Of a stretch of DNA of 64,000 nucleotides, positions 1 to 46,792 are shown piece by piece. The stretch spans positions 124,001 through 188,000 of the forward strand of contig NZ_JANZKX010000005.1 in assembly GCF_027257975.1 (NCBI RefSeq). The letters are read 5' to 3'. The DNA is from Pelomonas sp. BJYL3. Its GTDB lineage: Bacteria; Pseudomonadota; Gammaproteobacteria; Burkholderiales; Burkholderiaceae_C. The first letter of the stretch is position 1; every line of letters starts with the position of its first letter. The translations under genes were made by a program, and so were the position numbers. The notes beneath the pieces are model-generated. The model did no database searches, had not been told where the DNA came from, and was given only the letters and a program-made list of their open reading frames with translations.

Positions 1-3000
1 TCAGCGCATTGACCTGGGCCGTGGTCATGGCGGCGAACTGGTCGGAACCGAGCGTGCCCAGCACATCCGTGCTGATGGCGCGCAGGGCGGCCGTGCTGAT
101 GGCACGCAGATCGTCCGACTGCATCTTGGCCAGCTGATCACTGCTGAAGCCCACGATCTGGCTGCTGGTGAGGGCCGCGGCCTGGGCCGTGGTCAGTGCC
201 ACGACTTCATCCGTGGTCAGCGCGGCGATCTGGGCCGAGCTCAGGCTGCGCAGGGCGGCCGTGTTGAGCGCCGCGAAGTCCTCGGTCTGCAGGGCACGCA
301 GCTGGTCGGTGCCCAGGGCAGAGACCTGCGCCGAGGTGAGCACGGCGAACTGGTCGGTGCCCAGCGCGTTCAGGTCGTCGCTGACCATGCCCTTGATCTG
401 CGCGCTGGTGAGCGCGGCCACCTGGGCGGTGGTCAGGGCGCCGATCTGGTCAGAGCCGAGGGCACCGATCTGCTCGGTGCCGAGGGCCCGGATGGCCGCG
501 GTGCTGATCGCACGGAGGTCGTCGGTTTCCAGCGCAGCGATCTGGTCGGTGCTCAGGCCCTTGACCTGCGCACTGGTGAGCGCCGCGGCCTGGGCCGTGG
601 TCAGTGCCTTGATCTCGTCGGTCGAGAAGCCGCCGAACTGGTTGCCCGGGCTGGTGGCCAGCGAGGCGATCTGGGCCGAGGTGAGGGCCACGATCTGGTC
701 GGAGGTCAGCGCGGCGATCTGGTCGCTGCTCAGCGCCTTGATCGTGGCGGTGCTGAGGGCGCGCAGGTCGTCGGTCTCGATCTTGGCGATCTGGTCGCTG
801 GTGAGGCCGGTGACCTGGCTGCTGGTGAGGGCCGCGGCCTGGGCGGTGCTCAGGGCCACGATCTCATCGGTGGTCAGGGCACCGATCTGGACGGAGCTCA
901 TGCCACGCAGGGCCGCCGTGTTGATGGCGGCGAGGTCCTCGGTCTGCAGGGTCTTGATCTGGTCGCTCGTCAGGGCGGCCACCTGGCTGGAGCTCAAGGC
1001 CTTGAACTGGTCGGTGCCCAGCGCGTTGAGGTCGTCGCTGGCGAGGCTCTTGAGCTGGCTGCTGGTCAGCGCCTGGACCTGGCTCGTGGTCAGCGCGCCC
1101 AGCTGGTCCGAGGTCAGCTGTGCCAGCTGGTCGGTGCCCAGCGCCTTGATCACCGAGGTGCTCAGGGCACGCAGGTCCTGGGTCTCGAGCTTGATCAGCT
1201 GGTCGCTGGTCAGGCCGCCGATCTGTGCCGAGGTCAGGGACGCCGCCTGGTCGGTGGACAGCCCGATGATCTGGTCGCTGGTCAGCGCGCTCAGCTGCGC
1301 CGAGGTCAGGCCCTTCAGGGCGGCCGTGCTGATGTTGCCGAAGTCGTCGGTGGTCATGGTGCGGATCTGGTCCGTACCGATGGCCGCGATCTGGGCCGAG
1401 CTCAGCACCTTGATCTGGTCGGACACCAGGGCATTGAGGTCGTCGCTGCCCAGGCCCTTGATCTGGGCGGTGGTCAGGGCCGAGACCTGGGCGGTCGTCA
1501 GTGCGCCGATCTGGTCGGAGCCCAGGGCCGCGATCTGCTCGGTGCTGAGGGCCTTGATGGCGGCGGTGCTGATGGCGCGCAGGTCATCGGTCTCGAAGGC
1601 GGCCACCTGGTCGGTGCTCAGACCCTTGACCTGGCTGCTCGTCAGCGCAGCGGCCTGGGCGGTGGTCAGGGCGCGGATGTCGTCCGTGGCGAAGCCGCCG
1701 AACTGGTTGCCCGGTGCGGTCGCCAGGGCCGCGATCTGGGCCGAGGTCAGGGCCACGATCTGGTCAGACGTCAGGGCGGCGATCTGCTCGCTGCCCAGGG
1801 CCTTCAGCGTCCCGGTGTTGAGGGCGCGCAGGTCGTCGGTCTCGAGCTTGGCGATCTGGTCGCTGGTCAGGCCGGCGACCTGGCTGCTGGTCAGCGCGGC
1901 GGCCTGGGCCGTGGTCAGGGCCACGACCTCGTCCGTGGTCAGCGCGCCGAGCTGGACCGAGCTCATGCCACGCAGGGCCGCGGTGTTGATGGAGGCGAAG
2001 TCCTCGGTCTGCAGGGTCTTGATCTGGTCCGAGGTGAGGGCGCCGGCCTGGGCGCTGGTCAGCACCTTGAACTGATCGGTGCCCAGGGCATTCAGGTCGT
2101 CACTGGACAGCGCGCGCAGCTGGGCCGTGGTCAGGGCCGTGACCTGGGCCGTCGTCAGCGTCGCCAGCTGGTCGGAGCTCAGCGCGGCGAGCTGGTCGGA
2201 GCTCAGGGCCTTGATGGTGGCGGTGCTGATGGCGCGCAGGTCATCGGTCTCCAGCTTGACCAACTGGTCGCTGGTGAGGCCGCCGACCTGGTTGCTGGTC
2301 AGTGCCGCGGCCTGGGCCGTGTTCAGGGCCACGATCTCGTCCGTGGTCAGGGCGGCCAGTTGGGCCGAGTTCATGCCGCGCAGGGCCGCGGTGTTGATGG
2401 AGGCGAGGTCCTCGGTCTGCAGGGCCTTGATCTGCTCGGAGGTCATGGCGCCGACCTGGGCGCTGGTGAGCACCTTGAACTGGTCGGTGCCCAGGGCATT
2501 CAGGTCGTCCGTGCCCATGCCCTTGATCTGGGCCGTGGTGAGCGAAGCCACCTGGGCCGTGGTCAGTGCGCCGATCTGGTCGGAGCCCAGGGCCGCGATC
2601 TGCTCGGTGCTGAGGGCCTTGATGGCGGCCGTGCTGAGGGCGCGCAGGTCATCGGTCTCGAAGGCGGCCACCTGGTCGGTGCTCAGACCCTTGACCTGGC
2701 TGCTCGTCAGCGCGGCGGCCTGGGCGGTGGTCAGGGCGCGGATGTCGTCCGTGGCGAAGCCGCCGAACTGGTTGCCCGGTGCGGTCGCCAGGGCCGCGAT
2801 CTGGGCCGAGGTCAGGGCCACGATCTGGTCAGACGTCAGGGCGGCGATCTGCTCGCTGCCCAGGGCCTTCAGCGTCCCGGTGTTGAGGGCGCGCAGGTCA
2901 TCGGTCTCGATCTTGGCGATCTGGTCGCTGGTGAGGCCGGCCACCTGGCTGCTGGTCAGGGCGGCGGCCTGGGCCGTGTTCATGGCCACGATCTCATCCG

Positions 3001-6000
3001 TGGTCAGCGCGCCGAGCTGGACCGAGCTCATGCCACGCAGGGCGGCGGTGTTGATGGAGGCGAAGTCCTCGGTCTGCAGGGTCTTGATCTGGTCCGAGGT
3101 GAGGGCGCCGACCTGGGCGCTGGTCAGCACCTTGAACTGATCGGTGCCCAGGGCGTTGAGGTCGTCACTGGACAGCGCGCGCAGCTGGGCCGTGGTCAGG
3201 GCCGTGACCTGGGCCGTCGTCAGCGTCGCCAGCTGGTCGGAGCTCAGCGCGGCGAGCTGGTCGGAGCTCAGGGCCTTGATGGTGGCGGTGCTGATGGCGC
3301 GCAGGTCATCGGTCTCCAGCTTGACCAACTGGTCGCTGGTGAGGCCGCCGACCTGGTTGCTGGTCAGGGCCGCGGCCTGGGCCGTGTTCAGGGCCACGAT
3401 CTCGTCCGTGGTCAGAGAAGCGAGCTGGGCCGAGTTCATGCCGCGCAGGGCCGCGGTGTTGATGGAGGCGAGGTCCTCGGTCTGCAGGGCCTTGATCTGC
3501 TCGGAGGTCATGGCGCCGACCTGGGCGCTGGTCAGGACCTTGAACTGGTCGGTGCCCAGGGCATTCAGGTCGTCCGTGCCCATGCCCTTGATCTGGGCGG
3601 TGGTCAGGGCGGCCACTTGTGCCGTGGTCAGCGCGCCGATCTGGTCGGAACCCAGGGCCGCGATCTGCTCGGTGCCCAGGGCCTTGATGGCGGCGGTGCT
3701 GATGGCGCGCAGGTCATCCGTCTCGAAGGCGGCCACCTGGTCAGTGCTCAGGCCCTTGAGCTGGCTGCTCGTCAGCGCGGCGGCCTGGGCCGTGGTCAGC
3801 GCCTTGATCTCGTCGGTCGAGAAGCCGCCGAACTGGTTGGCCGGCGCCGTGGACAGGGCCGCGATCTGGGCGGTGGTCAGGGCGACGATCTGGTCAGACG
3901 TCAGCGCGGCGATCTGGTCGCTGCCCAGGGCCTTCAGCGTCCCGGTGTTGATCGCCCGCAGGTCGTCGGTCTCGATCTTGACGATCTGGTCGCTGGTCAG
4001 GCCGGCGACCTGGCCGCTGGTCAGGGCGGCGGCCTGGGCCGTGTTCATGGCCACGATCTCGTCGGTGGTCAGGGCCGCCAGCTGGGCCGAGTTCATGCCG
4101 CGCAGGGCTGCGGTGTTGATGGAGGCGAAGTCCTCGGTCTGCAGCGCCTTGACCTGCTCGGAGGTCATGGCGCCGACCTGGGCGCTGGTCAGCACCTTGA
4201 ACTGGTCGGTGCCCAGCGCGTTGAGGTCGTCCGTGCTCATGCCGCGGATCTGGGCCGTGGTCAGGGCGGCCACTTGTGCCGTGGTCAGCGCGCCGATCTG
4301 GTCGGAGCCCAGAGCACCGATCTGCTCGGTGCTGAGCGCCCGGATCGCAGCGGTGCTGATGGCGCGCAGGTCATCCGTCTCGAAGGCGGCCACCTGGTCG
4401 GTGCTCAGGCCCTTGACCTGGCTGCTCGTCAGCGCAGCGGCCTGGGCGGTGGTCAGGGCGCGGATGTCATCCGTGGCGAAGCCGCCGAACTGGTTGCCCG
4501 GTGCGGTCGCCAGGGCGGCGATCTGGGCCGAGGTCAGGGCCACGATCTGGTCAGACGTCAGGGCGGCGATCTGGTCGCTGCTGAGCGCCTTGAGCGTGCC
4601 CGTGCTGAGGGCGCGCAGGTCGTCGGTCTCGATCTTGGCGATCTGGTCGCTGGTCAGGCCCGCGACCTGGCTGCTGGTCAGGGCTGCGGCCTGGGCTGTG
4701 GTCAGCGCGACCACCTCGTCGGTCGTCAGGGCACCCACCTGCACGGAGCTCAGACCACGCAGGGCCGCGGTGTTGATGGAGGCGAAGTCCTCGGTCTGCA
4801 GGGTCTTGATCTGCTCCGAGGTGAGGGCGCCTACCTGGGCACTGGTCAGCACCTTGAACTGGTCGGTGCCCAGGGCATTCAGGTCGTCACTGGCCAGGGC
4901 ACGCAGCTGCGAGGTGGTCAGGGCCGCGACCTGGGCGGTGGTCAGCGTCGCCAGCTGGTCGCTGCTCAGGGCGGCGAGCTGGTCGGAACTGAGGGCCTTG
5001 ATGGTGGCGGTGCTGATGGCGCGCAGGTCATCGGTCTCCAGCTTGATCAACTGGTCGCTGGTGAGGCCGCCGACCTGGTTGCTGGTGAGGGCCGCGGCCT
5101 GGGCCGTGGTCAGTGCCACGACCTCATCCGTGGTCAGCGCAGCCAGCTGGGCCGAGTTCATGCCGCGCAGGGCGGCGGTGTTGATGGAGGCGAAGTCCTC
5201 GGTCTGCAGGGCCTTGACCTGCTCGGAGGTCAGGGCGCCGACCTGGGCGCTGGTCAGGACCTTGAACTGGTCGGTGCCCAGGGCGTTGAGGTCGTCACTG
5301 GCGAGGCCACGGACCTGGGCCGTGGTCAGCGAGGCCACCTGTGCGGTGGTCAGGGCGCCGATCTGGTCGGAGCCCAGGGCGCCGAGCTGTTCGGTGCTGA
5401 AGGCCTTGATGGCGGCGGTGCTGATGGCGCGCAGGTCATCCGTCTCGAAGGCGGCCACCTGGTCGGTGCTCAGGCCCTTGAGCTGGCTGCTCGTCAGCGC
5501 GGCGGCCTGGGCGGTGGTCAGGGCCTTGATCTCGTCGGTCGAGAAGCCACCGAACTGGTTGCCCGGCGTGGTCGCCAGGGCCGCGATCTGGGCCGTGGTC
5601 ATGGCCACGATCTGGTCGGACGAGAGCGCGGCGATCTGGTCGCTGCTCAGGGCCTTGATGGTGCCGGTGCTGATGGCACGCAGGTCATCAGTCTCGATCT
5701 TGGCGATCTGGTCGCTGGTGAGACCGGCGACCTGGCTGCTGGTCAGCGCCGCGGCCTGGGCCGTGCCCATGGCCACGATCTCGTCCGTGGTCAGGGCGGC
5801 CAGCTGGGCCGAGTTCATGCCACGCAGCGCGGCGGTGTTGATGGAGGCGAAGTCCTCGGTCTGCAGCGCCTTGATCTGCTCGGAGGTCATGGCGCCAACC
5901 TGGGCGCTGGTCAGGACCTTGAACTGGTCGGTGCCCAGGGCGTTCAGGTCGTCCGTGCCCATGCCGCGGATCTGCGCGGTGGTCAGGGCGGCCACCTGGG

Positions 6001-9000
6001 CCGTGGTCAGCGCGCCGATCTGGTCGGAGCCCAGGGCCGCGATCTGCTCGGTGCTGAGGGCCTTGATGGCGGCGGTGCTGATGGCGCGCAGGTCATCGGT
6101 CTCGAAGGCGGCCACCTGGTCGGTGCTCAGACCCTTGAGCTGGCTGCTGGTCAGCGCAGCGGCCTGGGCGGTGGTCAGGGCCTTGATCTCGTCGGTGGAG
6201 AAGCCACCGAACTGGTTGCCCGGCGTGGTCGCCAGGGCGGCGACCTGGGCCGTGGTCAGGGCCACGATCTGGTCAGACGTCAGGGCGGCGATCTGCTCGC
6301 TGCCCAGGGCCTTGATCGTGGCGGTGTTGATCGCCCGCAGGTCGTCGGTCTCGAGCTTGGCGATCTGGTCGCTGGTGAGACCGGCCACCTGGCTGCTGGT
6401 CAGCGCCGCGGCCTGGGCCGTGGTCAGGGCTACGATCTCGTTCGTGCCCAGGGCACCGATCTGGGCCGAGTTCATGCCGCGCAGGGCGGCGGTGTTGATG
6501 GACGCGAAGTCCTCGGTCTGCAGGGCCTTGATCTGGTCCGAGGTGAGGGCGCCGACCTGGGCGCTGGTCAGCACCTTGAACTGGTCGGTGCCCAGGGCAT
6601 TCAGGTCGTCGCTGGACAGCGCACGCAGCTGCGAGGTGGTCAGGGCCGCGACCTGGGCGGTGGTCAGGGTCGCCAGCTGATCGGAGCTGAGGGCGGCGAG
6701 CTGGTCGGAGCTCAGGGCCTTGATGGTGGCGGTGCTGATGGCCCGCAGGTCATCGGTCTCCAGCTTGACCAGCTGGTCGCTGGTCAGGCCGCCCACCTGG
6801 CCGGTGGTCAGGGCCGCGGCCTGGGCGGTGCTCAGGGCTACGATCTCATCCGTGGTGAGGGCCGCCAGCTGGGCCGAGTTCATGCCGCGCAGGGCGGCGG
6901 TGTTGATGGAGGCGAGGTCCTCGGTCTGCAGGGCCTTGATCTGCTCGGAGGTCATGGCGCCGACCTGGGCGCTGGTGAGCACCTTGAACTGGTCGGTGCC
7001 CAGGGCATTCAGGTCGTCCGTGCCCATGCCCTTGATCTGGGCCGTGGTGAGCGAAGCGACCTGGGCCGTGGTCAGTGCGCCGATCTGGTCAGAGCCCAGG
7101 GCGGCGATCTGGTCCGTGCCCATGGCCCGCAGCGTGGCGGTGTTCAGCGCACGCAGGTCATCGGTCTCCAGGGCGGCGATCTGGTCGCTGCTGAAGCCGC
7201 GGATCTGGCTGCTGGTGAGGGCCGCGGCCTGGGCCGTGGTCAAGGCCTTGATTTCATCGGTGCTCAGGCCGCCGAACTGGTTGGCCGGCGTGGTGGCCAG
7301 GGCGGCGATCTGGGCCGAGGTCATGGCCACGATCTGGTCGCTGCTCAGGGCGGCGATCTGATCGCTGGACAGCGCCCGGATGGCACCCGTGCTCATGGCG
7401 CGGAGGTCGTCGGTCTCGAGCTTGGCGATCTGGTCGCTGGTCAGGCCGGCCACCTGGGCGCTGGTCAGGGCGGCGGCCTGGGCGGTGCTCAGGGCCACGA
7501 TCTCGTCCGTGGTCAGTGCGCCGACCTGGGCCGAGTTCATGCCGCGCAGCGCGGCCGTGTTGATGGAGGCGAGGTCCTCGGTCTGCAGCGCCTTGATCTG
7601 CTCGGAGGTCATGGCGCCGACCTGGGCGCTGGTGAGGACCTTGAACTGGTCGGTGCCCAGGGCATTCAGGTCGTCCGTGCCCATGCCCTTGATCTGGGCC
7701 GTGGTGAGCGAAGCGACCTGGGCCGTCGTCAGGGCGCCGATCTGGTCGGAGCCCAGGGCCGCGATCTGCTCGGTGCCCAGGGCCTTGATGGCGGCGGTGC
7801 TGATGGCACGCAGGTCATCGGTCTCCAGCGCGGCGATCTGATCAGTACTCAGGCCCTTGACCTGTGCACTGGTCAGCGCGGCGGCCTGGGCGGTGGTCAG
7901 GGCCTTGATCTCGTCGGTCGAGAAGCCGCCGAACTGGTTGCCCGGCGTGGTCGCCAGGGCGGCGACCTGGGCCGTGGTCAGGGCGACGATCTGGTCAGAG
8001 CTCAGGGCGGCGATCTGGTCGCTGCTGAGGGCCTTGATGGTGGCGGTGTTGATCGCCCGCAGGTCGTCGGTCTCGAGCTTGGCGATCTGGTCGCTGGTCA
8101 GACCGGCGACCTGGCTGCTGGTCAGCGCCGCGGCCTGGGCCGTGGTCAGGGCCACGATCTCGTTCGTGCCCAGGGCACCGATCTGGGCCGAGCTCATGCC
8201 GCGCAGGGCGGCGGTGTTGATGGAGGCGAAGTCCTCGGTCTGCAGGGCCTTGATCTGGTCCGAGGTGAGGGCGCCGACCTGGGTGCTGGTCAGCACCTTG
8301 AACTGGTCGGTGCCCAGGGCGTTGAGGTCGTCGCTGGACAGGGCGCGCAGCTGCGAAGTGGTCAGGGCCGTGACCTGGGCGGTGGTCAGGGTTGCCAGCT
8401 GATCGGAGCTCAGCGCGGCGAGCTGGTCGGAGCTCAGGGCCTTGATGGTGGCGGTGCTGAGGGCGCGCAGGTCGTCGGTCTCCAGCTTCACCAGCTGGTC
8501 GCTGCTGAGGCCGGCCACCTGCGTGCTGGTCAGGGCCGCGGCCTGGGCGGTGCTCAGGGCCACGATCTCGTCCGTGGTCAGGGCCGCCAGCTGGGCCGAG
8601 TTCATGCCGCGCAGGGCGGCGGTGTTGATGGAGGCCAGATCCTCGGTCTGCAGGGCCTTGATCTGTTCCGAGGTCATGGCGCCGACCTGGGCGCTGGTCA
8701 GGACCTTGAACTGGTCGGTGCCCAGGGCGTTCAGGTCGTCCGTGCCCATGCCCTTGATCTGGGCGGTGGTGAGCGAAGCGACCTGGGCCGTGGTCAGCGC
8801 GCCGATCTGGTCAGAGCCCAGGGCCGCGATCTGCTCGGTGCCCAGGGCCTTGATGGCGGCGGTGCTGATGGCGCGCAGGTCATCGGTCTCCAGCACGGCC
8901 ATCTGGTCGGAGCTCAGGCCCTTGATCTGGCTGCTGGTCAGGGCGGCGGCCTGGGCCGTCGTCAGGGCGACGACGTCTTCGGTGTTGAGGGCGCCCAGCT

Positions 9001-9970
9001 GGCTGCTGGTCAGGGCGGCGGCCTGGGCCGTGGTCAGCTGGGACACCTGGTCGGAGCTGAGGCTGCGGATCTGGTCGCTGCTGAAATTGCGCAGGGCGCT
9101 GGTGCTCAGCGCCCTCAGATCGTCCGATTCCAGCTTGGCCAGCTGGTCACTGCTGAAGCCGGTGACCTGGCTGCTGGTCAAGGCGGCCGCCTGGGCCGTG
9201 GTCAGCGCGACCACCTCGTCGCTGGTCAGTGCGCCGATCTGGGCCGAGCTCATGCCGCGCAGGGCGGCGGTGTTGATCGAGGCCAGGTCTTCGGTCTGCA
9301 GCGTCTTGATCTGGTCGGTGCCGATGGCGGCGACCTGCGCCGAGGTCAGCACCTTGAACTGGTCGGTGCCCAGGGCGTTCAGGTCCTCGCTGCCCATGCC
9401 CCGGATCTGCGAGGTGGTCAGGTTGGCGACCTGGCTGGTGGTCAGTGCGCCGATCTGGTCGGAGCCCAGGGCCGCGATCTGGTCGGAGCTCAGGGCCTTC
9501 AGGGCGGCCGTCGAAATCTGGCGCAGGTCTTCCGTCTGGATCAGCGGGATCTGGTCGGAGGTAAGGACGCCGACCTGCGTCGAGGTCAGGGCCTTGTACT
9601 GGTCCGTGGTCAGCGCCTGGAGGTCGTCGCTGCCCAGGCCCTTGATCTGGCTGGTGGTCAGGGCGGCGACCTGCGTGGTGGTCAGCGCGCCGATCTGGTC
9701 GGACCCCAGCGCACCCAGCTTGGCGTCCGACATCGCGCGCAGGGCGGCGGTGTTGAGGGCCCGCAGGTCCTGCGTCTCGAAGCGCGCGATCTGGTCGCTG
9801 GCCAGGGAGTTGATGGCGAAAGTTCCGAGCGAGGCCACCTGCTGGGTGGTCAGCGCGATGATCTGGTCGCTGCTGAAGGCGGCCCAGTCTTCCGTCGTGA
9901 GCTTGGCCAGCGTTTGGGTCGACAGGGCAGCGATCTGGTCGGTCGACAGGGTGAGAATCAATGACGCCAT
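1..9970 (-). CDS. Giant octapeptide-repeat protein, C-terminus beyond the left edge
   Basis: The minus strand is open without a stop from an ATG at 9970 to the window edge (at least 3,323 codons). Translation begins MASLILTLSTDQIAAL and continues as 8-residue units of consensus L-[TSG]-[TS]-[DAS]-Q-[IV]-x-A, roughly 410 units in the window. The same frame still reads GTLGSDQFAAMTTAQVNAL near position 58, so no net frameshift exists. Every so often a unit is replaced by variants containing TEDL or TDDL, and long modules carry an 11-residue unit with PGNQFGGF. No N-terminal signal peptide is visible, which would fit a type I-secreted or intracellular protein; the C-terminus that would decide this is not in the window. 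I do not recognise a named family. Ice-nucleation proteins share an octad hierarchy, but not this sequence. Upstream of the ATG the ribosome binding site is weak. Confidence 0.9.
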   Translation of the reverse strand, partial: MASLILTLSTDQIAALSTQTLAKLTTEDWAAFSSDQIIALTTQQVASLGTFAINSLASDQIARFETQDLRALNTAALRAMSDAKLGALGSDQIGALTTTQVAALTTSQIKGLGSDDLQALTTDQYKALTSTQVGVLTSDQIPLIQTEDLRQISTAALKALSSDQIAALGSDQIGALTTSQVANLTTSQIRGMGSEDLNALGTDQFKVLTSAQVAAIGTDQIKTLQTEDLASINTAALRGMSSAQIGALTSDEVVALTTAQAAALTSSQVTGFSSDQLAKLESDDLRALSTSALRNFSSDQIRSLSSDQVSQLTTAQAAALTSSQLGALNTEDVVALTTAQAAALTSSQIKGLSSDQMAVLETDDLRAISTAAIKALGTEQIAALGSDQIGALTTAQVASLTTAQIKGMGTDDLNALGTDQFKVLTSAQVGAMTSEQIKALQTEDLASINTAALRGMNSAQLAALTTDEIVALSTAQAAALTSTQVAGLSSDQLVKLETDDLRALSTATIKALSSDQLAALSSDQLATLTTAQVTALTTSQLRALSSDDLNALGTDQFKVLTSTQVGALTSDQIKALQTEDFASINTAALRGMSSAQIGALGTNEIVALTTAQAAALTSSQVAGLTSDQIAKLETDDLRAINTATIKALSSDQIAALSSDQIVALTTAQVAALATTPGNQFGGFSTDEIKALTTAQAAALTSAQVKGLSTDQIAALETDDLRAISTAAIKALGTEQIAALGSDQIGALTTAQVASLTTAQIKGMGTDDLNALGTDQFKVLTSAQVGAMTSEQIKALQTEDLASINTAALRGMNSAQVGALTTDEIVALSTAQAAALTSAQVAGLTSDQIAKLETDDLRAMSTGAIRALSSDQIAALSSDQIVAMTSAQIAALATTPANQFGGLSTDEIKALTTAQAAALTSSQIRGFSSDQIAALETDDLRALNTATLRAMGTDQIAALGSDQIGALTTAQVASLTTAQIKGMGTDDLNALGTDQFKVLTSAQVGAMTSEQIKALQTEDLASINTAALRGMNSAQLAALTTDEIVALSTAQAAALTTGQVGGLTSDQLVKLETDDLRAISTATIKALSSDQLAALSSDQLATLTTAQVAALTTSQLRALSSDDLNALGTDQFKVLTSAQVGALTSDQIKALQTEDFASINTAALRGMNSAQIGALGTNEIVALTTAQAAALTSSQVAGLTSDQIAKLETDDLRAINTATIKALGSEQIAALTSDQIVALTTAQVAALATTPGNQFGGFSTDEIKALTTAQAAALTSSQLKGLSTDQVAAFETDDLRAISTAAIKALSTEQIAALGSDQIGALTTAQVAALTTAQIRGMGTDDLNALGTDQFKVLTSAQVGAMTSEQIKALQTEDFASINTAALRGMNSAQLAALTTDEIVAMGTAQAAALTSSQVAGLTSDQIAKIETDDLRAISTGTIKALSSDQIAALSSDQIVAMTTAQIAALATTPGNQFGGFSTDEIKALTTAQAAALTSSQLKGLSTDQVAAFETDDLRAISTAAIKAFSTEQLGALGSDQIGALTTAQVASLTTAQVRGLASDDLNALGTDQFKVLTSAQVGALTSEQVKALQTEDFASINTAALRGMNSAQLAALTTDEVVALTTAQAAALTSNQVGGLTSDQLIKLETDDLRAISTATIKALSSDQLAALSSDQLATLTTAQVAALTTSQLRALASDDLNALGTDQFKVLTSAQVGALTSEQIKTLQTEDFASINTAALRGLSSVQVGALTTDEVVALTTAQAAALTSSQVAGLTSDQIAKIETDDLRALSTGTLKALSSDQIAALTSDQIVALTSAQIAALATAPGNQFGGFATDDIRALTTAQAAALTSSQVKGLSTDQVAAFETDDLRAISTAAIRALSTEQIGALGSDQIGALTTAQVAALTTAQIRGMSTDDLNALGTDQFKVLTSAQVGAMTSEQVKALQTEDFASINTAALRGMNSAQLAALTTDEIVAMNTAQAAALTSGQVAGLTSDQIVKIETDDLRAINTGTLKALGSDQIAALTSDQIVALTTAQIAALSTAPANQFGGFSTDEIKALTTAQAAALTSSQLKGLSTDQVAAFETDDLRAISTAAIKALGTEQIAALGSDQIGALTTAQVAALTTAQIKGMGTDDLNALGTDQFKVLTSAQVGAMTSEQIKALQTEDLASINTAALRGMNSAQLASLTTDEIVALNTAQAAALTSNQVGGLTSDQLVKLETDDLRAISTATIKALSSDQLAALSSDQLATLTTAQVTALTTAQLRALSSDDLNALGTDQFKVLTSAQVGALTSDQIKTLQTEDFASINTAALRGMSSVQLGALTTDEIVAMNTAQAAALTSSQVAGLTSDQIAKIETDDLRALNTGTLKALGSEQIAALTSDQIVALTSAQIAALATAPGNQFGGFATDDIRALTTAQAAALTSSQVKGLSTDQVAAFETDDLRALSTAAIKALSTEQIAALGSDQIGALTTAQVASLTTAQIKGMGTDDLNALGTDQFKVLTSAQVGAMTSEQIKALQTEDLASINTAALRGMNSAQLAALTTDEIVALNTAQAAALTSNQVGGLTSDQLVKLETDDLRAISTATIKALSSDQLAALSSDQLATLTTAQVTALTTAQLRALSSDDLNALGTDQFKVLTSAQAGALTSDQIKTLQTEDFASINTAALRGMSSVQLGALTTDEVVALTTAQAAALTSSQVAGLTSDQIAKLETDDLRALNTGTLKALGSEQIAALTSDQIVALTSAQIAALATAPGNQFGGFATDDIRALTTAQAAALTSSQVKGLSTDQVAAFETDDLRAISTAAIKALSTEQIAALGSDQIGALTTAQVSALTTAQIKGLGSDDLNALVSDQIKVLSSAQIAAIGTDQIRTMTTDDFGNISTAALKGLTSAQLSALTSDQIIGLSTDQAASLTSAQIGGLTSDQLIKLETQDLRALSTSVIKALGTDQLAQLTSDQLGALTTSQVQALTSSQLKSLASDDLNALGTDQFKALSSSQVAALTSDQIKTLQTEDLAAINTAALRGMSSVQIGALTTDEIVALSTAQAAALTSSQVTGLTSDQIAKIETDDLRALSTATIKALSSDQIAALTSDQIVALTSAQIASLATSPGNQFGGFSTDEIKALTTAQAAALTSAQVKGLSTDQIAALETDDLRAISTAAIRALGTEQIGALGSDQIGALTTAQVAALTSAQIKGMVSDDLNALGTDQFAVLTSAQVSALGTDQLRALQTEDFAALNTAALRSLSSAQIAALTTDEVVALTTAQAAALTSSQIVGFSSDQLAKMQSDDLRAISTAALRAISTDVLGTLGSDQFAAMTTAQVNAL
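261..9272 (-). repeat. Modular 24-bp repeat array with 408/657-bp higher-order units
   Basis: A recurring marker (plus strand gtgttgatg or close variant, encoding the end of a QTEDLxSINT-type unit) lies at 261, 918, 1326, 1983, 2391, 3048, 3456, 4113, 4770, 5178, 5835, 6492, 6900, 7557, 8214, 8622 and 9270. The spacings are only 657, 408 or, once, 648 bp. 408 is 17 octads of 24 bp, 648 is 27 octads, and 657 is 27 octads plus 9 bp. The series 657-657-408 (1,722 bp) occurs three times in tandem between 3456 and 8622. Copies are very similar at DNA level, so copy number may vary by recombination. Confidence 0.92.
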
Positions 9971-10420
9971 GGTGTGCTCACTTGGTTATTGCTGGACGCC
10001 CGGCCTGAAAGCTCGGGAGCTGGGGAAGTGCGGCTCCAGGCGCCCCGGCTGGGGCCTGTACACCACTTCCTGACCATCAATGTCAATCAATGCGTTGCGC
10101 GGGACTTTTCCCGCTTCAGTCGGATTTCGACCCGCCCAGCGCAAACTTGAGCGCAGGCGCGCCCCCGACACCGGGGACGAGGCTGGAGGGGCGAAAGGGC
10201 GGAGGTTTTTCACGAATTTCAGCCTTGGCCGTCCGGCAGGGGCCCGGACGCAGCCTGGGAATAGCTCGCCCGGCGATGCTAGGGGCGGGCGGACGCTGGC
10301 AAAGCCGGCAAAAGCTGTTGCAATACTTGCCTGTTCCCGCCATGGGCGTGGCTGCATCCGGCTCCAATGACGTCGACGATGGGGCCCGGCATGCGCCCGG
10401 ACCGATCCATTGATGCCTCT
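9971..10420. other. 450-bp divergent intergenic region
   Basis: This stretch separates the giant repeat gene from the glycosyltransferase gene. I see no convincing gene in it; short open frames are present in several phases, as expected at this GC content. It holds a 6-bp-arm hairpin at 10099-10114 (GCGGGA, TCCCGC) and a candidate minus-strand promoter. No clear plus-strand promoter for the glycosyltransferase was found. Confidence 0.6.
10057..10086 (-). promoter_or_regulatory. Candidate sigma-70 promoter for the giant repeat gene
   Basis: On the minus strand a perfect TTGACA (10086-10081) is followed after 18 bp by TGTACA (10062-10057), a poor -10 match. The start codon at 9970 would then have a leader of about 80 nt. 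The -35 is convincing, the -10 is not. Confidence 0.3.
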
Positions 10421-11380
10421 ATGCAGATCACCACACTCATCCCGGCCTACAAGACCAAATACCTCGCGGAGCTGCTGACGGGCCTGCTGACCCAGACGCG
10501 CCCCGCCGAGCGGGTGATCGTGTCGGATGACAGCCCGGACGGCAGCTTCGGCGCCTTGCTGAGGGAAGGGCCGCTGGCCAGGTTCGCGTCCCGGCTGCCC
10601 CTGGAGATCCATCCGGGGCCGCGCGCGGGTGCCTATGAGAACTTCAAGCACCTGGTGAAGCTCTGGGGAGGCCAGTCCGAACTCTTCCATATCCACCTGG
10701 ACGACGACGTCATCTACCCCGACTTCTATGCCCAGCACCGCATGGTCCATGCTGCGGGAGACGCGATCTCCTGCAGCGTCAGCGCGCGCTGGACGGCAAA
10801 CGAAAAGGGGCAACCCATCGAGGGCATGCCCATCCCGGATGGAATCTTCCATGCTCAGGCCCGCATGATGTCGGTCGGCCCCATGGCCCTGATCTCCAGT
10901 ACCGTGCCTTATTGCCAGAATTGGCTGGGAGAATTTTCGAACTGCGTCATCCGGGCCGAGCATGCCGGCTTGCTGGCGGACACCCAGTTTGGCGGCGTCT
11001 CTTACGCCGGCCTGTGGGACCTGGGCTTCTTCATTGCGGCCAGCCTGCGCCAACCCATCGCCTACATCCAGGACCGCCTGGGCTACTTTCGCGCCGGCGG
11101 CGAGGGCCACTCGGCCCAGGTCAACGGCAAGCACATGAAGGCGGCCCACCTGGGCTATGCGGCACTGGGCGTCGGTCTGCAGCGCCTGGGGCGCATGAAT
11201 GAGGCGCAGGCCAGGCTCTGCTACGAAGGCATCGCGCAGGCCCTGATGGCACGCTATGGCGGCCAGGAGGACATGCTGCCGTTCGCCGCCCTGCTGATGC
11301 GCATGGCGCAGCAGGATGCGCAGGCGGGCGAGGACTTCGTGAACGCCTGGCAGGCCTTCCTGACCCAACACGGCTTCTGA
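10421..11380 (+). CDS. Family 2 (GT-A) glycosyltransferase
   Basis: The 319-residue product starts MQITTLIPAYKTKYLAELL, the first beta strand of the GT-A nucleotide-sugar fold, and continues with VSDDSPDGSF and, near residue 95, HLDDDVIYPDF, a DxD-type metal/nucleotide site. I chose the ATG at 10421 because an upstream in-frame ATG at 10367 adds only a Pro/Arg-rich stretch with no family similarity. The stop is one base before the next gene's ATG, so it is co-transcribed with the acyltransferase. No membrane segment or signal peptide is visible, so it should act in the cytoplasm. Acceptor and sugar cannot be read from the sequence. The position next to the Thr/Ser-rich giant protein makes protein or surface-glycan decoration possible. 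Confidence 0.8.
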   Translation: MQITTLIPAYKTKYLAELLTGLLTQTRPAERVIVSDDSPDGSFGALLREGPLARFASRLPLEIHPGPRAGAYENFKHLVKLWGGQSELFHIHLDDDVIYPDFYAQHRMVHAAGDAISCSVSARWTANEKGQPIEGMPIPDGIFHAQARMMSVGPMALISSTVPYCQNWLGEFSNCVIRAEHAGLLADTQFGGVSYAGLWDLGFFIAASLRQPIAYIQDRLGYFRAGGEGHSAQVNGKHMKAAHLGYAALGVGLQRLGRMNEAQARLCYEGIAQALMARYGGQEDMLPFAALLMRMAQQDAQAGEDFVNAWQAFLTQHGF

Positions 11381-11381: not shown

Positions 11382-12026
11382 ATGAATCTGATGCAACGCC
11401 TGGAGCGCTGGCGCGGCCTGATCAGCCGCCTGCCGGCGCTGGAACTGGAGGGCGCCGTGCGGGCCCTCCTTGTGCACTTCTTCTTCCACACGTCCGACAA
11501 GCAGCGGGTGGAGCTGGTGGGTGAGGGCCCGCGCACGGTCAACGTCCTGACGCCCACGGTATTCAAGGGTGCCGGGGCCTTCAGGCTCAGCAATCGGGCC
11601 GTCTTCGGCGTGCCGCGCTCGCCGGGCAGCCTGTCCTGCAGCTACTTCGAGTCCCGCACGCCGGAGTCGCTGATCGACATCGGCCCGGGCACGGTCTTCA
11701 ACAACCGCTGCGTGCTGATCTCGGAGGGCGCCTTCATCCGCTTCGGGGCGGACTGCCTCGTGGGCCAGGAGCTGCAGGTCTTTGACAGCCATCTGCACGA
11801 CCTGCGCCTGGCGCACCGCCGCTCGCCGGACCCGACGCCGCGTGGGGTGGAGATCGGCAATCAGGTCTTCATCGGCGCGCGGGTGACGATCCTCAAGGGC
11901 GTGAAGATCGGCGACGGCTGCATCATCGCCGCCGGCGCCGTGGTGACGCCGGGCTTCGAGGCGCCGCCCATGACCCTGGTGGGCGGCAACCCGGCGAGGG
12001 TGCTGGGGCCGGTGCCGCAGGACTGA
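11382..12026 (+). CDS. Hexapeptide-repeat (LbH) acyltransferase
   Basis: The 214-residue protein has a C-terminal left-handed beta-helix signature: repeated [IV]-G-x-x-x units (IDIGPGTVFNN, RFGADCLVGQ, VEIGNQVFIGARVTILKGV, KIGDGCIIAAGAVVT) and the typical ending GGNPARVLG. This is the WbbJ/maltose O-acetyltransferase type that moves acetyl groups from acetyl-CoA to sugars. A candidate catalytic His lies in FDSHLHDL. The start follows the glycosyltransferase stop by one base, which implies translational coupling. The pair probably builds and acetylates the same glycan. The exact substrate is unknown. Confidence 0.8.
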   Translation: MNLMQRLERWRGLISRLPALELEGAVRALLVHFFFHTSDKQRVELVGEGPRTVNVLTPTVFKGAGAFRLSNRAVFGVPRSPGSLSCSYFESRTPESLIDIGPGTVFNNRCVLISEGAFIRFGADCLVGQELQVFDSHLHDLRLAHRRSPDPTPRGVEIGNQVFIGARVTILKGVKIGDGCIIAAGAVVTPGFEAPPMTLVGGNPARVLGPVPQD

Positions 12027-12094: not shown

Positions 12095-13057
12095 TCAAGA
12101 CTCGTCGTTGAGGCGCAGCAGGTAGGTGTCCTGCGCCCGGGTGGCGCGCACGACGCGGCGGCCGTGCTCGTTGACGGCCAGGTAGAGGTCGATCGAGCCC
12201 TTCTGCGCGACCTGGGCCTGCAGGGCCTCGGGCACGTCGTAGCCGATGGTGGACACGGGCTGCTCGGCGCCGTGCTTCTGGGGCGACAGGCCGGTGTACT
12301 CCCAGGATCCCAGCATGGAGCGGCGGGCCCAGCTGTCATCGGCGGGCAGGGCGGTGCCGCGGTCCACGGCGCGGCAGACGATGGAGATGAAGCCGCACTC
12401 CTTGCCCGGCACATAGAGGGCGGCATCGGAGGGGTGGCGGCTGTAGAGGCAGTCGATGGGCGCGAAGTTGAAGTAGCGCAGCATGTACTCCAGCAGCGGG
12501 ATCGAGGGGTACCAGAAGGTGTTGGGCTCGGTCTGCAGCTTGCCGGCGGTGTTGAAGTGCATCACGTCGGACTGCTCGTTGACGACGTTGGTCGAGAGCA
12601 TGAAGAGCCCGTTCTTCTTCACCAGCGGCCGGGCGCAGGCCAGCGTGTGCATGGGCGAGAACACGTGGTAGAGCACGCCGGAGAGGTTGACGTAGTCGAA
12701 GGTGCCTTCGTCGGCCAGCTTCTGGTGCAGGTCGTACATCAGGCCGACCTCTCGGAAGTCCCAGTCGGCCTTGTAGACCTTCTTGAGCCAGTCCATCTTC
12801 TGGGCGCAATGGGGCACGGCGTCGGTGGCGAGCACGCGGCGGGCGCCCTTGCGGTTCATCAGCACGGGGATCACGCCTTCCATGCTGCCGAGGTCCAGGC
12901 AGTCCTGGCCCTGGAGATGGGCCTGGCGCATCAGCATGCGGGGCATGTAGGGGAAGTCGGGCGGATAGGTGCCCTGGGCGACGAGGCCGGGGGAGAGCTC
13001 GACGGTGTAGTACCACCATTCCTTGGCGGCCTGGGCCAGTTCTTCGTTGCTGAGCAT
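12095..13057 (-). CDS. Class I SAM-dependent methyltransferase
   Basis: The 320-residue product starts MLSNEELAQAAKEWWYY. An AGGAG eight bases before this ATG (13057) supports it over an upstream ATG at 13114 that adds 19 Pro/Arg-rich residues. Motif I of the Rossmann fold reads CLDLGSMEGVIPVLM (about residues 55-70), followed by VLATDAVP (motif II) and FDYVNLSGVLYHVFSPMHTL (motif IV). The overall look is that of the CmoB-like DUF1698 group, but the N-terminal half is not enough to call tRNA modification. It may instead methylate a sugar or lipid, given the neighbouring glycosyltransferase. It is convergent with the acyltransferase. Confidence 0.7.
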   Translation of the reverse strand: MLSNEELAQAAKEWWYYTVELSPGLVAQGTYPPDFPYMPRMLMRQAHLQGQDCLDLGSMEGVIPVLMNRKGARRVLATDAVPHCAQKMDWLKKVYKADWDFREVGLMYDLHQKLADEGTFDYVNLSGVLYHVFSPMHTLACARPLVKKNGLFMLSTNVVNEQSDVMHFNTAGKLQTEPNTFWYPSIPLLEYMLRYFNFAPIDCLYSRHPSDAALYVPGKECGFISIVCRAVDRGTALPADDSWARRSMLGSWEYTGLSPQKHGAEQPVSTIGYDVPEALQAQVAQKGSIDLYLAVNEHGRRVVRATRAQDTYLLRLNDES

Positions 13058-13396
13058 GGGAGGGGCTCCTGTCCGTGGACGACGTGGCAGCGGCGCCTGC
13101 GGGCGGGGCTGCATACCGGGAGTCTGCCTGGGGTGGCCGGGGCTGATCCATCCTGGATGGGGCGGGGGAGGGGGTAATTCCGGCGTTTGGGATGGTGCTG
13201 GGCTTCATGCGTCGGGTGGAGCATCGCCGGGATGCGGGGGCACGGGATTGCTCCGTGTCCTCCGGACCGCGTTGCGGTCCTCCCCCTTTTACCTGCGCAA
13301 TCCCATGCCCCCGCATCCCGGCTCGTGCGCAGTGAAGTTGTGCGGAGAGCTTGCTACGCGAAATGCTTGAAAGGGAGCTTGGGTTGGGCGTATGAG
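13058..13396. other. 339-bp intergenic region with a large stem-loop
   Basis: This region lies between two minus-strand genes. I find no gene in it. Its main content is the inverted-repeat element at 13226-13322, described separately. The remainder is GC-rich spacer that must contain the promoter of the methyltransferase gene; no clear -35/-10 pair was seen. Confidence 0.6.
13226..13322. repeat. Large inverted repeat, 26-bp arms with inner hairpin
   Basis: Arms at 13226-13251 and 13297-13322 are reverse complements with one mismatch. The 45-bp centre holds a second perfect hairpin, GGACCGC-GTT-GCGGTCC (13264-13280). The element of about 97 bp sits wholly in non-coding DNA. The layout fits a REPIN-like or small non-autonomous element, or a strong RNA stem-loop. 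There is no T-tract to make it a simple terminator. Confidence 0.75.
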
Positions 13397-14047: not shown

Positions 14048-14135
14048 GGTGGGCTGCAGTGTTGGACGTCGGATGGGCCCGCAGCACGCAAGCTGCTGCG
14101 CAAGGCCGATGCTGTCAGAGTGTAGTCAAATTTGC

Positions 14136-14151
14136 ATTCATAATTATGAAT
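14136..14151. promoter_or_regulatory. Palindromic operator candidate for the GntR regulator
   Basis: ATTCATAATTATGAAT is a perfect 16-bp palindrome and a conspicuous AT-rich island in the 143-bp divergent spacer between the GntR gene and methylmalonyl-CoA mutase. It ends 39 bp before the mutase start, where a repressor would block transcription. A TATGAT hexamer at 14163-14168 could be the mutase -10, but no matching -35 at normal spacing is present. Confidence 0.6.
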
Positions 14152-14190
14152 AACGAAGGCGCTATGATGCGTGGCCTTCAGGAGTTGTCA

Positions 14191-16373
<2,183 letters not shown>

Positions 16374-16374
<1 letters not shown>

Positions 16375-16835
16375 TGGCGCTGCGCCTGGTCCCGGTCGTG
16401 GCCGAGGACTTCGAGGAGCTGCTGGCCCTGCGCATCGCCGCCATGCAGGACAGCCTGGAGCGCGCCGGCATCTTCGACCCGGAGCGGGCCCGACAGCGAT
16501 TCCTGGGCCAGTTCGACCCTGCCAGCACCTGGCACATCGAGCGCCTCACGGCGGCAGGGCCGGTGCGCGCCGGACTGCTGACCCTGAAGGTGCAGGACGG
16601 TTTCCTGCGCCTGGAGCACCTCTACATCCATCCCCGCCACCAGAACCAGGGCGTGGGCACCTGGGCGCTGGCGCAAGCGAAGTCGAGGGCGCGCGAGGAG
16701 GGGCTGGATCTCTCGCTGGCCGCGCTCAGGATCAGCGACGCCAACCGCTTCTACCAGCGTCACGGCTTGCGTGCGGTGAGCTCCACCGAGCTGGACACCG
16801 AGTACCGCTGGTCTCCTGAAGGAGACCGCGCATGA
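16374..16835 (+). CDS. GNAT-family N-acetyltransferase
   Basis: The 153-residue protein carries the GNAT core: [20 protein letters not shown] (acetyl-CoA pyrophosphate loop of Q/R-x-x-G-x-G/A type, about residues 80-100) and the late beta strand plus helix [13 protein letters not shown]. The start codon shares its A with the mutase stop (TGATG) and the 3' end overlaps meaB by four bases, so it is translationally coupled in the middle of the mutase/chaperone operon. The substrate is unknown. Protein or small-molecule acetylation linked to acyl-CoA metabolism is only suggested by the position. Confidence 0.85.
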
Positions 16836-17926
16836 GCCTCGCGCACGCCATCCTGGCCGGGCCCGGCCCGGCCCAGCGCCGCGCCATGGCCAAGTCCATC
16901 ACGCTGCTGGAGTCCACCCGGGCCGACCACCGCGCCCAGGCCGACACCCTGCTGGGCGAGCTGCTGCCGCACACGGGCCGGTCGCTGCGCCTTGGAATCT
17001 CGGGCGTGCCAGGCGTGGGCAAGAGCACCTTCATCGAGGCCCTGGGCCTGTTCCTGATCGAGCGCGGCCATCGTGTGGCCGTGCTGGCCGTGGACCCGTC
17101 GAGCACGGTGTCGGGTGGCTCCATCCTGGGGGACAAGACCCGCATGGAGCGCCTGTCCATGGACGAGCGCGCCTACATCCGCCCCAGCCCCAGCAGCGGC
17201 ACTCTGGGCGGCGTGGCCGAGAAGACGCGCGAGGCCATGCTGGTCTGCGAGGCCGCGGGCTTCGACGTGGTCATCGTCGAGACCGTGGGCGTGGGCCAGA
17301 GCGAGACCGCCGTGGCCGGCATGACGGACATGTACGTGCTGCTGCAGCTGCCCAATGCCGGCGACGAGCTCCAGGCCATCAAGAAGGGCGTGATGGAGCT
17401 GGCGGACCTGGTGGTGATCAACAAGGCCGATGTGGACCCCGCCGCGGCGACGCGGGCGCAGGCCCAGATCATGTCCTCGTTGCGCCTGCTCGGGATGCAC
17501 GGCCGGCCCGAGCACGCGGCGCATGACGAGACGCTGTGGCACCCCAAGGCCCTGCAGCTCAGTGCGCTCAAGTTCCAGGGCCTCAGCGAGTTCTGGGCTG
17601 CTGTCGAGCAGTTCCGGCAGCTGCAGACCGCCGGCGGCCGTTGGGCCGAGAAGCGCCAGCAGCAGGCCCTGGCCTGGATGTGGGAACGCATCCAGAGCGG
17701 GCTCAAGGCGGCCTTCATGGCAGACGCTTCGGTACGCGCCCAACTGCCCGACACCACGGCCCGCGTGCTCGCCGGCCAGCTGGCGCCCTCGACCGCCGCA
17801 CGCGCGCTTCTCACCGCTTTCCATGGCCAGGCGGCCGCGGCCGGGCCGGTTTCCCCGACATCCGACTCCTCCAGTTCCCAGGTGCCAGGTCTTGCCCCCG
17901 CGGCGACGCCCGGCACTGCCCCGTGA
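16832..17926 (+). CDS. meaB: MeaB/ArgK-type GTPase, methylmalonyl-CoA mutase chaperone
   Basis: The 364-residue G3E-family GTPase has the P-loop GVPGVGKST (about residue 58), the LAVDPSS strand, the Walker B/switch region [12 protein letters not shown] and the guanine-specificity motif NKAD. MeaB proteins load and protect the adenosylcobalamin cofactor of methylmalonyl-CoA mutase. It overlaps the GNAT gene (ATGA) and ends 10 bp before pccB. The last 40 or so residues are a low-complexity Ala/Ser/Pro-rich tail that is not part of the usual fold. Confidence 0.95.
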
Positions 17927-17936
17927 AAGGACCGTT

Positions 17937-19469
<1,533 letters not shown>

Positions 19470-19501
19470 CCCGTCCGGCGCGAGCACGACTTCCGTCCAT
19501 C

Positions 19502-20113
19502 ATGCCCAAGTCCATCCTGCTGTCGCTGTTGCTGGCTGTCCTGGGCTCGGCTCACGGCGCTCCTCGACCGCTGACGGCCGAGGCCGTGGCGCCCTGCGTG
19601 GCGTTGCGTGCCTTGCCGGCCCTGAGCCTGGACTACCTGGACGCACGCCACACCGAGCAGGGCATGGCCATGCTCCTGCTGCTGGAGCAAGGCAGCGAGC
19701 TCGCCGCCGAGGACCAGGCCTGGTGGCGCGAGCAGCTGGCGCAGCCGGGCGAGATCGACGACGCGCGTCTGCGGCACTGGGCCGAGCAGGGCTTCGAGCG
19801 CTGCACGGCCCGCCTGGTGCCGGACAGCAGCCCCGGACAGCGCGCGGCCTGCGGTGCGGACCTCGACACCCTGCCGGTGATCCTGCTGTACCGCGCCGAC
19901 GGCCTGCCGCTCAAGGAAGCGCGTCGTGACCTGCGCGAGGCGCTGGCGCAGGGCGTCGACGGCCTGGAGGCCGGCCGGGCCGAGGCCATGCTGCGCTTCG
20001 GCTACGAAGGCACGGGCCCCCGCAAGGGCGACATGAGCGCCTGGCTGCGCGAGCGCCAGGAGCGCTGGGTCGCGCGCTGCCTGCAGGCGCGCACCGCGAA
20101 GTCGCAGCCATGA
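19502..20113 (+). CDS. Small exported protein of unknown function
   Basis: The 203-residue product starts MPKSILLSLLLAVLGSAHGA, a clean Sec signal peptide with cleavage expected after AHG or AHGA. The mature part is charged, alpha-helical in character and contains three Cys (APCVAL, FERCTA, RAACGAD) plus one near the C-terminus (ARCLQA), so two disulfides are possible in the periplasm. I do not recognise a family. It lies between the two propionyl-CoA carboxylase subunit genes, 32 bp after pccB, in the same direction. A functional link to the carboxylase is not evident, since that enzyme is cytoplasmic. Confidence 0.7.
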   Translation: MPKSILLSLLLAVLGSAHGAPRPLTAEAVAPCVALRALPALSLDYLDARHTEQGMAMLLLLEQGSELAAEDQAWWREQLAQPGEIDDARLRHWAEQGFERCTARLVPDSSPGQRAACGADLDTLPVILLYRADGLPLKEARRDLREALAQGVDGLEAGRAEAMLRFGYEGTGPRKGDMSAWLRERQERWVARCLQARTAKSQP

Positions 20114-20167
20114 ACCACTGTCTGAAATTCGAATCGAAGGCTGGCGTGCTGCCAGCTTGGAGGCACT

Positions 20168-22243
<2,076 letters not shown>

Positions 22244-46283: not shown

Positions 46284-46359
<76 letters not shown>

Positions 46360-46403
46360 AATTCAAATGAATGGGTGGCGCGCAGTTCAAGGAAGAAGGT
46401 TTA

Positions 46404-46479
46404 GTCCCCTTCGTCTAGAGGCCTAGGACACGACCCTTTCACGGTTGTAACAGGGGTTCGAATCCCCTAGGGGACGCCA
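46404..46479 (+). tRNA. tRNA-Glu (anticodon TTC), copy 1
   Basis: 76 nt with encoded CCA. The acceptor stem GTCCCCT pairs with AGGGGAC. The anticodon stem CGACC/GGTTG encloses CTTTCAC, anticodon TTC. Confidence 0.96.
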
Positions 46480-46515
46480 AGTTTGACAAGGCTTGGCAGT
46501 TTGTTGAAAAACAGA

Positions 46516-46546
46516 TTGCAAACTTGTTAAATATTGTGGTTATAAT
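46516..46546 (+). promoter_or_regulatory. Promoter upstream of tRNA-Asp copy 1
   Basis: A perfect TATAAT (46541-46546) lies 14 bp before the tRNA-Asp gene, with TTGCAA (46516-46521) 19 bp upstream, in an AT-rich stretch. Copy 2 of tRNA-Asp lacks this element. Confidence 0.6.
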
Positions 46547-46560
46547 ACGCTGCGATATTT

Positions 46561-46637
46561 GGAGTGGTAGTTCAGTTGGTTAGAATACCGGCCTGTCACG
46601 CCGGGGGTCGCGGGTTCGAGCCCCGTCCACTCCGCCA
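46561..46637 (+). tRNA. tRNA-Asp (anticodon GTC), copy 1
   Basis: 77 nt with encoded CCA. The acceptor stem GGAGTGG pairs with CCACTCC. The anticodon stem CCGGC/GCCGG encloses CTGTCAC, anticodon GTC. Confidence 0.96.
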
Positions 46638-46642
46638 ACAAT

Positions 46643-46673: not shown

Positions 46674-46716
46674 ATATAAAGCTTGAACGGCGCGCCGTTA
46701 TTGAGTAAAGCTCAAT

Positions 46717-46792
<76 letters not shown>

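Follow-up and report, generated by a model that had tools for sequence, protein, structure and literature searches.

The analysed stretch (hereafter the window) comprises 64,000 nucleotides of contig C24 from the host genome, Pelomonas sp. BJYL3 (G000:C24:124001-188000). Its first 10 kb are occupied by a minus-strand open reading frame for a giant octapeptide-repeat protein (1..9970, residues 1-3323 of 4031), which was assigned by its match to the Pfam family PF20080 and by a coding-strand test. The sequence-only reading had reported this frame, open from position 9970 to the left edge over 3,323 aa, as incomplete there, and both observations hold: traced on the contig, the frame continues for 708 residues plus the stop codon to the left of the window (G000:C24:121875-124000, minus strand) and ends at C24:121875, giving a complete protein of 4,031 aa (G000:C24:121875-133970). 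The protein has a mass of 410 kDa and a pI of 4.2, contains 22.6% Ser+Thr, and lacks Cys. A repeat parser that leaves octad positions 2-4 unscored identified 432 octads covering 92% of residues 8-3770; the last ~250 residues are unlike the octads. The protein autocorrelation peaks at multiples of 8, with stronger peaks at 355 and 574 aa and high values also at 136 and 219, and Tandem Repeats Finder reports DNA periods of 24, 249, and 408 bp. Because of the peaks at 355/574 aa and the periods of 249/408 bp, the octads are grouped into longer units.

The plus strand opposite the octad gene is likewise open (2..9964), and plus-strand frames had been named as a possible alternative gene. This frame is accounted for by codon usage. 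The third-position GC content of the octad gene is 0.949 on the minus strand, and the three kinds of sense codons that read as antisense stops occur only once in its 4,032 codons, so that the plus-strand frame stays open. Most substitutions relative to the orthologue in genome G002 affect the third codon position (31/28/82 differences at positions 1/2/3 in the first 300 codons and 49/42/143 in 695 codons at the end), which, together with the codon statistics, rules out a plus-strand gene. The minus strand is the coding strand.

Next to the octad gene lies a divergent GT2-like glycosyltransferase gene (10367..11380, plus strand), whose match to PF00535 (E 0.0058, 17 bits) is below the cut-off of 23.3; its homologue in G015 scores 27.7 bits, above the cut-off. 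The idea that this adjacent glycosyltransferase is relevant gains some ground, since the gene is kept beside ALTTAQ genes (those encoding PF20080 repeats, see below) in G002, G015, G009, and G063. It is followed by a hexapeptide-repeat acyltransferase gene (11382..12026, plus strand; PF00132, 43.7 bits), homologues of which adjoin ALTTAQ genes in G002, G015, and G009, and by a methyltransferase gene (12095..13114, minus strand; PF08003, 45.1 bits), which has a homologue with 50% identity in the G009 cluster. A plus-strand frame overlapping the methyltransferase gene (12164-13177) gave no Pfam match.

Elsewhere in the window, a propionyl-CoA pathway cluster is located at 14059-22243 on the plus strand (methylmalonyl-CoA mutase, MeaB, carboxyl transferase, biotin carboxylase). 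Six tRNA genes (46284-47057, plus strand), immediately preceded by the gene for a class I tRNA synthetase of the Glu/Gln type (44742-46148), consist of the trio Ala(ggc)-Glu(ttc)-Asp(gtc) present twice, with identical Rfam scores in both copies; this array is a tandem duplication. The region 47620-62665 contains polysaccharide-type genes, namely those for a bacterial sugar transferase (47620), a histidine-kinase-like ATPase (49083), an N-acyl amino acid synthase of the FeeM-like kind that also carries PilZ (55475), a PEP-CTERM protein (57014-57934, minus strand), and a Wzz-like protein (61091), and is possibly an exosortase-linked matrix locus.

The sequence-only reading could name no family for the octads. 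A profile search assigns them to PF20080, the ALTTAQ repeat: two pieces in the window score 1193 and 945.5 bits and the last 508 aa of the protein score 206.1 bits, all far above the 26.4-bit cut-off. The Pfam entry describes the same repeat and gave only the name, and the secretion and glycosylation partners described below were found in the present analysis. Other Pfam matches of the octads (CAAP1, Sigma70_r4_2, Phage_TAC_7, SapC, and others) were regarded as chance matches to repeats, and NCBIfam matches, all far under cut-off, were likewise dismissed as repeat artefacts. A full-text literature search, covering neither subscription papers nor preprints, found no publication on ALTTAQ, and LTTAQ yielded unrelated matches only.

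The structure prediction that had been recommended for the octad modules was run on a segment of 272 residues (7526..8341, minus strand) and gave a confident helical solenoid (AlphaFold, pLDDT 92.7, pTM 0.81). The helix-capping box proposed for every repeat is borne out to the extent that each octad is modelled as one short helix starting after position 2. Position 3, the first residue of each predicted helix, is Ser/Thr in 427/432 octads of the window protein and in a fraction of 0.908 of the 18,660 octads from the named Burkholderiales loci. The fraction is lower elsewhere (0.730 in G478, 0.456 in family f82, 0.682 in family f85), with Ser/Thr enriched at position 4 instead; the hydroxyl residues of f82 and f85 octads are distributed across positions 2, 3, and 4. 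A fold search related the solenoid to mesothelin-like and importin-like folds, apparently by common arrangement only, and these were set aside. Octads of the same pattern occur in HeliScrew4 (PDB 9zem; phmmer E 8.8e-16), a short chain of 120 residues with Pro at the octad position that is Ser/Thr in 427/432 octads of the window protein, showing that Pro is tolerated at position 3. HeliScrew 9zem was absent among the 50 matches listed in the fold search with the octad model, and no publication on HeliScrew was found in the full-text search, whose scope excluded subscription papers and preprints.

Matches to PF20080 were found in 23 of 120 relatives, the host genome included (E<=0.001), and in 16 of 398 genomes across the phylum (E<=1e-8), as well as in the distant families f82 (25/199 genomes) and f53 (2/148). 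The control genome of Caulobacter vibrioides has a match above the cut-off at E<=0.001 and none at 1e-8. A phylum-level match in G309 was dropped, being 16 octads within a 4,173-aa frame of other sequence. The f85 genomes G184, G223, and G234 each contain several giant ALTTAQ-like frames of up to 5,692 aa, with no GT41 glycosyltransferase gene nearby in the fetched stretches. A second, shorter ALTTAQ gene with a different N-terminus follows directly downstream of the giant one in G009 (G009:C1:4028562-4032521) and G063 (G063:C4:702789-706556). For locus-level comparisons we used 80 named loci from GTDB genomes, the best 80 of 150 relatives; among these, 78/80 encode at least 10 octads.

The earlier remark that no export signal is visible at the N-terminus agrees with the complete sequence, in which the octads start at residue 8. 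The informative end for export is the C-terminus, which lies outside the window. It was modelled on a close homologue from Roseateles subflavus (L081, 87% identical over the query), and the model shows a beta domain, after which ~73 residues are predicted with low confidence. In a Foldseek search the domain matches 6sjw, the Ca2+-bound self-processing module (SPM) of FrpC (E 1.4e-16, 44% identity, target TM 0.79), and then 6sjx (E 2.9e-16, 45% identity). The C-terminal domain of the octad protein thus shares the SPM fold, with conserved Asp-rich motifs, and differs from FrpC in its location at the C-terminus and in the lack of RTX repeats. The FrpC module is described as cutting an Asp-Pro bond and as belonging to type I secreted proteins (mBio e00226-20). 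In ALTTAQ proteins the Asp before the key Pro is always replaced by a hydroxyl residue, a pattern that is not random (76 Thr, 22 Ser, no Asp in 98 motif matches from the 80 named loci L081-L160, the best 80 of 150 relatives); therefore, judging from this substitution, the Asp-Pro cleavage chemistry should be absent, and self-cutting of the FrpC kind should not occur. Another host protein, L069 (G000:C1:1059030-1065983), has an SPM-like domain that retains Asp-Pro and is encoded near an HlyB/HlyD pair.

An RTX signal had been suspected to the left of the window. No GGxGxD motif was found in the 4,031 aa of the octad protein, and what lies there instead is the domain of FrpC-SPM fold with a conserved acidic tail. 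Among complete C-termini of the best 80 of 150 relatives, 95/97 have at least two acidic residues just before the end, and 76/97 end in PL[ILV] (60 PLI, 14 PLL, 2 PLV). At the level of sequence, the conserved acidic tail and the linkage to type I secretion systems in relatives mark the protein as a candidate type I substrate.

This linkage is seen in G015, where the ALTTAQ gene is surrounded by a full type I system (ABC, HlyD, and outer-membrane protein) as well as by DegT aminotransferase, hexapeptide acetyltransferase, and GT2 genes. The host orthologues of these genes are located on contig C2 (ABC 71%, HlyD 68%, outer-membrane protein 62%, DegT 73%, and hexapeptide 74% identity), at a locus that also carries FdtA/WxcM-like, NeuB, cytidylyltransferase, and other sugar genes. 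In the host the GT41 gene and the type I system are on C2 and the ALTTAQ gene is on C24, and the GT2, the second hexapeptide gene, and the methyltransferase remain beside the latter in the window. The ABC protein belongs to TIGR03375, type_I_sec_LssB (778.9 bits, cut-off 693.1), and the HlyD protein to TIGR01843 (315.9 bits, cut-off 208.65), whereas the outer-membrane protein scores under the TIGR01844 cut-off (50.8 vs 225.15 bits). The host's other type I system, HlyB/HlyD on C1, was rejected as the exporter: its ABC protein is 31% identical to that of G015, vs 71% for the C2 protein, and a protein encoded close by carries an SPM-like domain of its own in which Asp-Pro is present. The products of the DegT and FdtA/hexapeptide genes are similar to QdtB and WxcM-like enzymes, a likeness that suggests a 3-acetamido-3,6-dideoxyhexose as the putative sugar product. 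In G009, two ALTTAQ genes, FdtA, DegT, GT2, and two hexapeptide genes are consecutive on one strand and face a GT41-ABC-HlyD-OEP-methyltransferase series, and in Paucibacter sp. PLA-PC-4 (L096) the ALTTAQ, hexapeptide, DegT, FdtA, outer-membrane protein, HlyD, ABC, and GT41 genes are all located within ~12 kb.

A close HlyD orthologue (E<1e-120) was found in 16/23 PF20080-positive relatives, being absent from the other 7, vs 1/97 PF20080-negative genomes, the lone carrier being the fragmented assembly G044; this threshold, like that of at least 61% identity for GT41 below, was set after the gaps in the lists had been seen, and the association becomes weaker when it is relaxed (HlyD at E<=1e-60 is present in 30 genomes, of which 18 are PF20080-positive). 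The Fisher test on co-occurrence of HlyD and GT41 with PF20080 treats genomes without correction for kinship. Both the ALTTAQ gene and HlyD could be placed in 13 of the 17 HlyD genomes (G044 has no PF20080 match): they share a contig and are separated by no more than roughly 31 kb in 9/13 (G009, G015, G023, G031, G037, G047, G057, G063, and G068) and lie on different contigs in G000, G001, G002, and G007. In the flanks of the 80 named loci (best 80 of 150), which extend up to 10 kb and in many cases stop at contig ends, we counted DegT in 22, the outer-membrane protein in 20, FdtA in 15, HlyD in 14, GT2 in 12, hexapeptide-1 in 11, ABC in 10, and GT41 in 8.

The gene adjoining the ABC gene on the host contig C2, as well as in G009 and G037, encodes a protein with TPR and Glyco_transf_41 domains, i.e., a member of the TPR-OGT class; orthologues are present in the G015, G023, G057, and G063 clusters. 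The nearest solved chains are human OGT (3.4e-78) and XcOGT (8.3e-76), and the alignment retains the active-site Lys and His of XcOGT, its catalytic residues. At the threshold of at least 61% identity, this GT41 is found in 14/23 PF20080-positive relatives, being absent from the other 9, and in 0/97 PF20080-negative genomes; with a looser threshold (E<=1e-60) it is found in 43/120 genomes. The spacing between HlyD and GT41 is 2.2-3.0 kb in all 14 genomes with a close GT41, and the ABC gene was found between them in 7 of the 14 and, partly, in G031.

Linkage recurs in distant families. In f82, 16/25 positive genomes carry a GT41 gene no more than 3 kb from the ALTTAQ gene (13 directly downstream on the same strand, with 23-326 bp between hit and ORF ends, and 3 divergent), and the remaining 9 have none near the examined locus; the second ALTTAQ loci of G652, G669, G647, and G460 also have no GT41. 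Both positive f53 genomes have a GT41 near the ALTTAQ gene. Among the eight f85 genomes examined, one (G160) has a GT41 nearby, together with a type I system, and three have clear HlyD/ABC homologues. On a GT41 tree of 51 sequences, built by a quick method without bootstrap, one clade (SH-aLRT 96) unites 25 ALTTAQ-linked enzymes of f1, f53, and f82, and a second (SH-aLRT 100) contains 7 more from other Burkholderiales. The 18 unlinked rows, defined by the lack of an ALTTAQ frame in the fetched 4-5 kb, fall outside both linked clades, and the linked G160 enzyme groups among these controls. With the original labels the tree requires 5 label changes, vs 16 in shuffles; G014 and G068, initially labelled as controls, were relabelled as linked post hoc when an ALTTAQ frame was found in the fetched stretch, and the host row was scored as linked although it is on a different contig from the ALTTAQ gene. 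Rows with an open frame below 380 aa (G057, Ideonella oryzae, Inhella) were left out. Overall, the gene linkage between GT41 and ALTTAQ is strong. The full-text search, without subscription papers and preprints, found no publication on GT41 or O-GlcNAc transferase with type I secretion; papers combining type I secretion and protein O-glycosylation were unrelated by title, and those on GT41 and adhesins dealt with HMW1C and others.

Taking the gene arrangements and predicted structures together, we consider that the octad protein is probably a surface rod that receives O-glycans from a dedicated GT41 while in the cytoplasm, is exported by a type I system, and is used in attachment or as a coat. 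The complete open reading frame, the family, the predicted fold, the C-terminal domain, and the gene linkage in relatives were established directly. From them we infer that GT41 modifies the octad protein, as well as the residues, the sugar, the export by a LapB/LssB-type system, the surface location, and the role. The giant, acidic, Cys-free rod, with each octad helix capped by Ser/Thr at its start, would be made in the cytoplasm, where the dedicated TPR-GT41 would O-glycosylate Ser/Thr at helix starts, position 3 of the octad being the first candidate site. The array of Ser/Thr at position 3 is consistent with glycosylated helix starts but could be structural. The DegT aminotransferase, the FdtA/WxcM-like protein, the hexapeptide acetyltransferases, GT2, and the methyltransferase may supply or extend the glycan. 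Export would proceed in one step through the dedicated LapB/LssB-type system reading the C-terminal end, the C-terminal domain would fold on Ca2+ outside the cell, and the finished glycoprotein would serve as a cell-surface or matrix rod for attachment or as a coat. The sequence-only reading had suggested a surface or matrix fibre from size, Thr/Ser richness, and the adjacent glycosyltransferase; we retain it as a probable location because of the linkage to type I secretion in relatives and the FrpC-type C-terminal domain.

The protein might instead be a giant adhesin or matrix protein of the ordinary type I secreted kind, free of glycans, with the linked GT41 and the sugar genes acting on some other product, for instance O-antigen or flagellin. 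Genes for amino sugars, GT2 enzymes, acetyltransferases, and methyltransferases are typical of O-antigen loci and fit this explanation; the TPR/GT-B transferase FlmG is described as glycosylating flagellin in Caulobacter, and the host GT41 is not adjacent to the ALTTAQ gene. Nonetheless, in two other families GT41 repeatedly lies directly next to ALTTAQ genes, and the linked GT41s separate from the unlinked ones on the tree, which makes an unglycosylated adhesin rather unlikely. Less probable still is an S-layer-like coat on lipopolysaccharide, for which the sugar genes would make the anchoring O-polysaccharide and GT41 would play a minor or chaperone part. Such a coat is known from Caulobacter, where the S-layer protein RsaA is held by O-polysaccharide; a very large, acidic, Cys-free protein with a Ca2+-binding C-terminal domain would suit it, as would the occurrence of the type I system and sugar genes in one G009 cluster, but GT41 linkage persists at f82 loci where the type I secretion and sugar genes searched for were not found nearby. 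We give very little credence to a cytoplasmic scaffold or structural protein that is neither exported nor glycosylated: the absence of a visible N-terminal signal would agree with it, but the C-terminal domain is of the type I secreted FrpC class, the C-terminal tail is conserved, and PF20080 co-occurs with type I systems.

The glycosylated, type I exported rod resembles several known systems in part. In the HMW1A/HMW1B/HMW1C system of Haemophilus influenzae, a large exported protein is described as receiving its glycans in the cytoplasm from an enzyme of the GT41 family that is encoded in linkage with it. The likeness lies in these two components, which in the ALTTAQ case are deduced from the genes. 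The systems differ in export (two-partner secretion for HMW1, type I secretion for ALTTAQ loci) and in the enzyme, HMW1C being described as having an AAD fold and attaching sugar to Asn, and the ALTTAQ-linked enzyme having TPR. N-glycosylation by an HMW1C-like enzyme is unlikely, because the 4,031 aa of the octad protein contain just 6 N-x-S/T sequons. FlmG of Caulobacter crescentus is described as a soluble protein with N-terminal TPR and C-terminal GT-B that acts on flagellins before export; it is likened to the ALTTAQ-linked GT41 by domain description, and its substrates are flagellins, whereas the gene partner of the latter is the ALTTAQ protein. With LapA-type giant adhesins the octad protein shares an LssB-subfamily exporter and its character as a giant acidic substrate, but LapA is built of beta domains and the octad protein is a predicted helical solenoid.

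Through the present analysis, a widespread family of giant repeat proteins on which little has been published gains a candidate function and a specified partner enzyme. If the proposed glycosylation and export are true, dedicated cytosolic glycosylation before export would be extended to type I secretion, and OGT-like enzymes, most of whose bacterial substrates are not known, would gain a natural one in which the acceptor sites are very regularly arrayed. Serine-rich-repeat adhesins of Gram-positive bacteria have disordered repeats and are served by the cytosolic O-glycosyltransferase GtfA/GtfB and an accessory Sec exporter. They resemble the proposed system in having a dedicated cytosolic O-glycosyltransferase and exporter for a Ser/Thr-rich repeat surface protein, and differ in their Gram-positive hosts, in the exporter and enzyme, and in having disordered rather than helical repeats. 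We tentatively suggest, as a possibility somewhat short of even, that the ALTTAQ loci encode a third kind of dedicated glycoprotein-export cassette, combining a type I system and an OGT-like GT41 with an octad-rod substrate whose Ser/Thr residues are in register; the rod may carry hundreds of glycans at eight-residue spacing and would then be mucin-like, with a rigid core.
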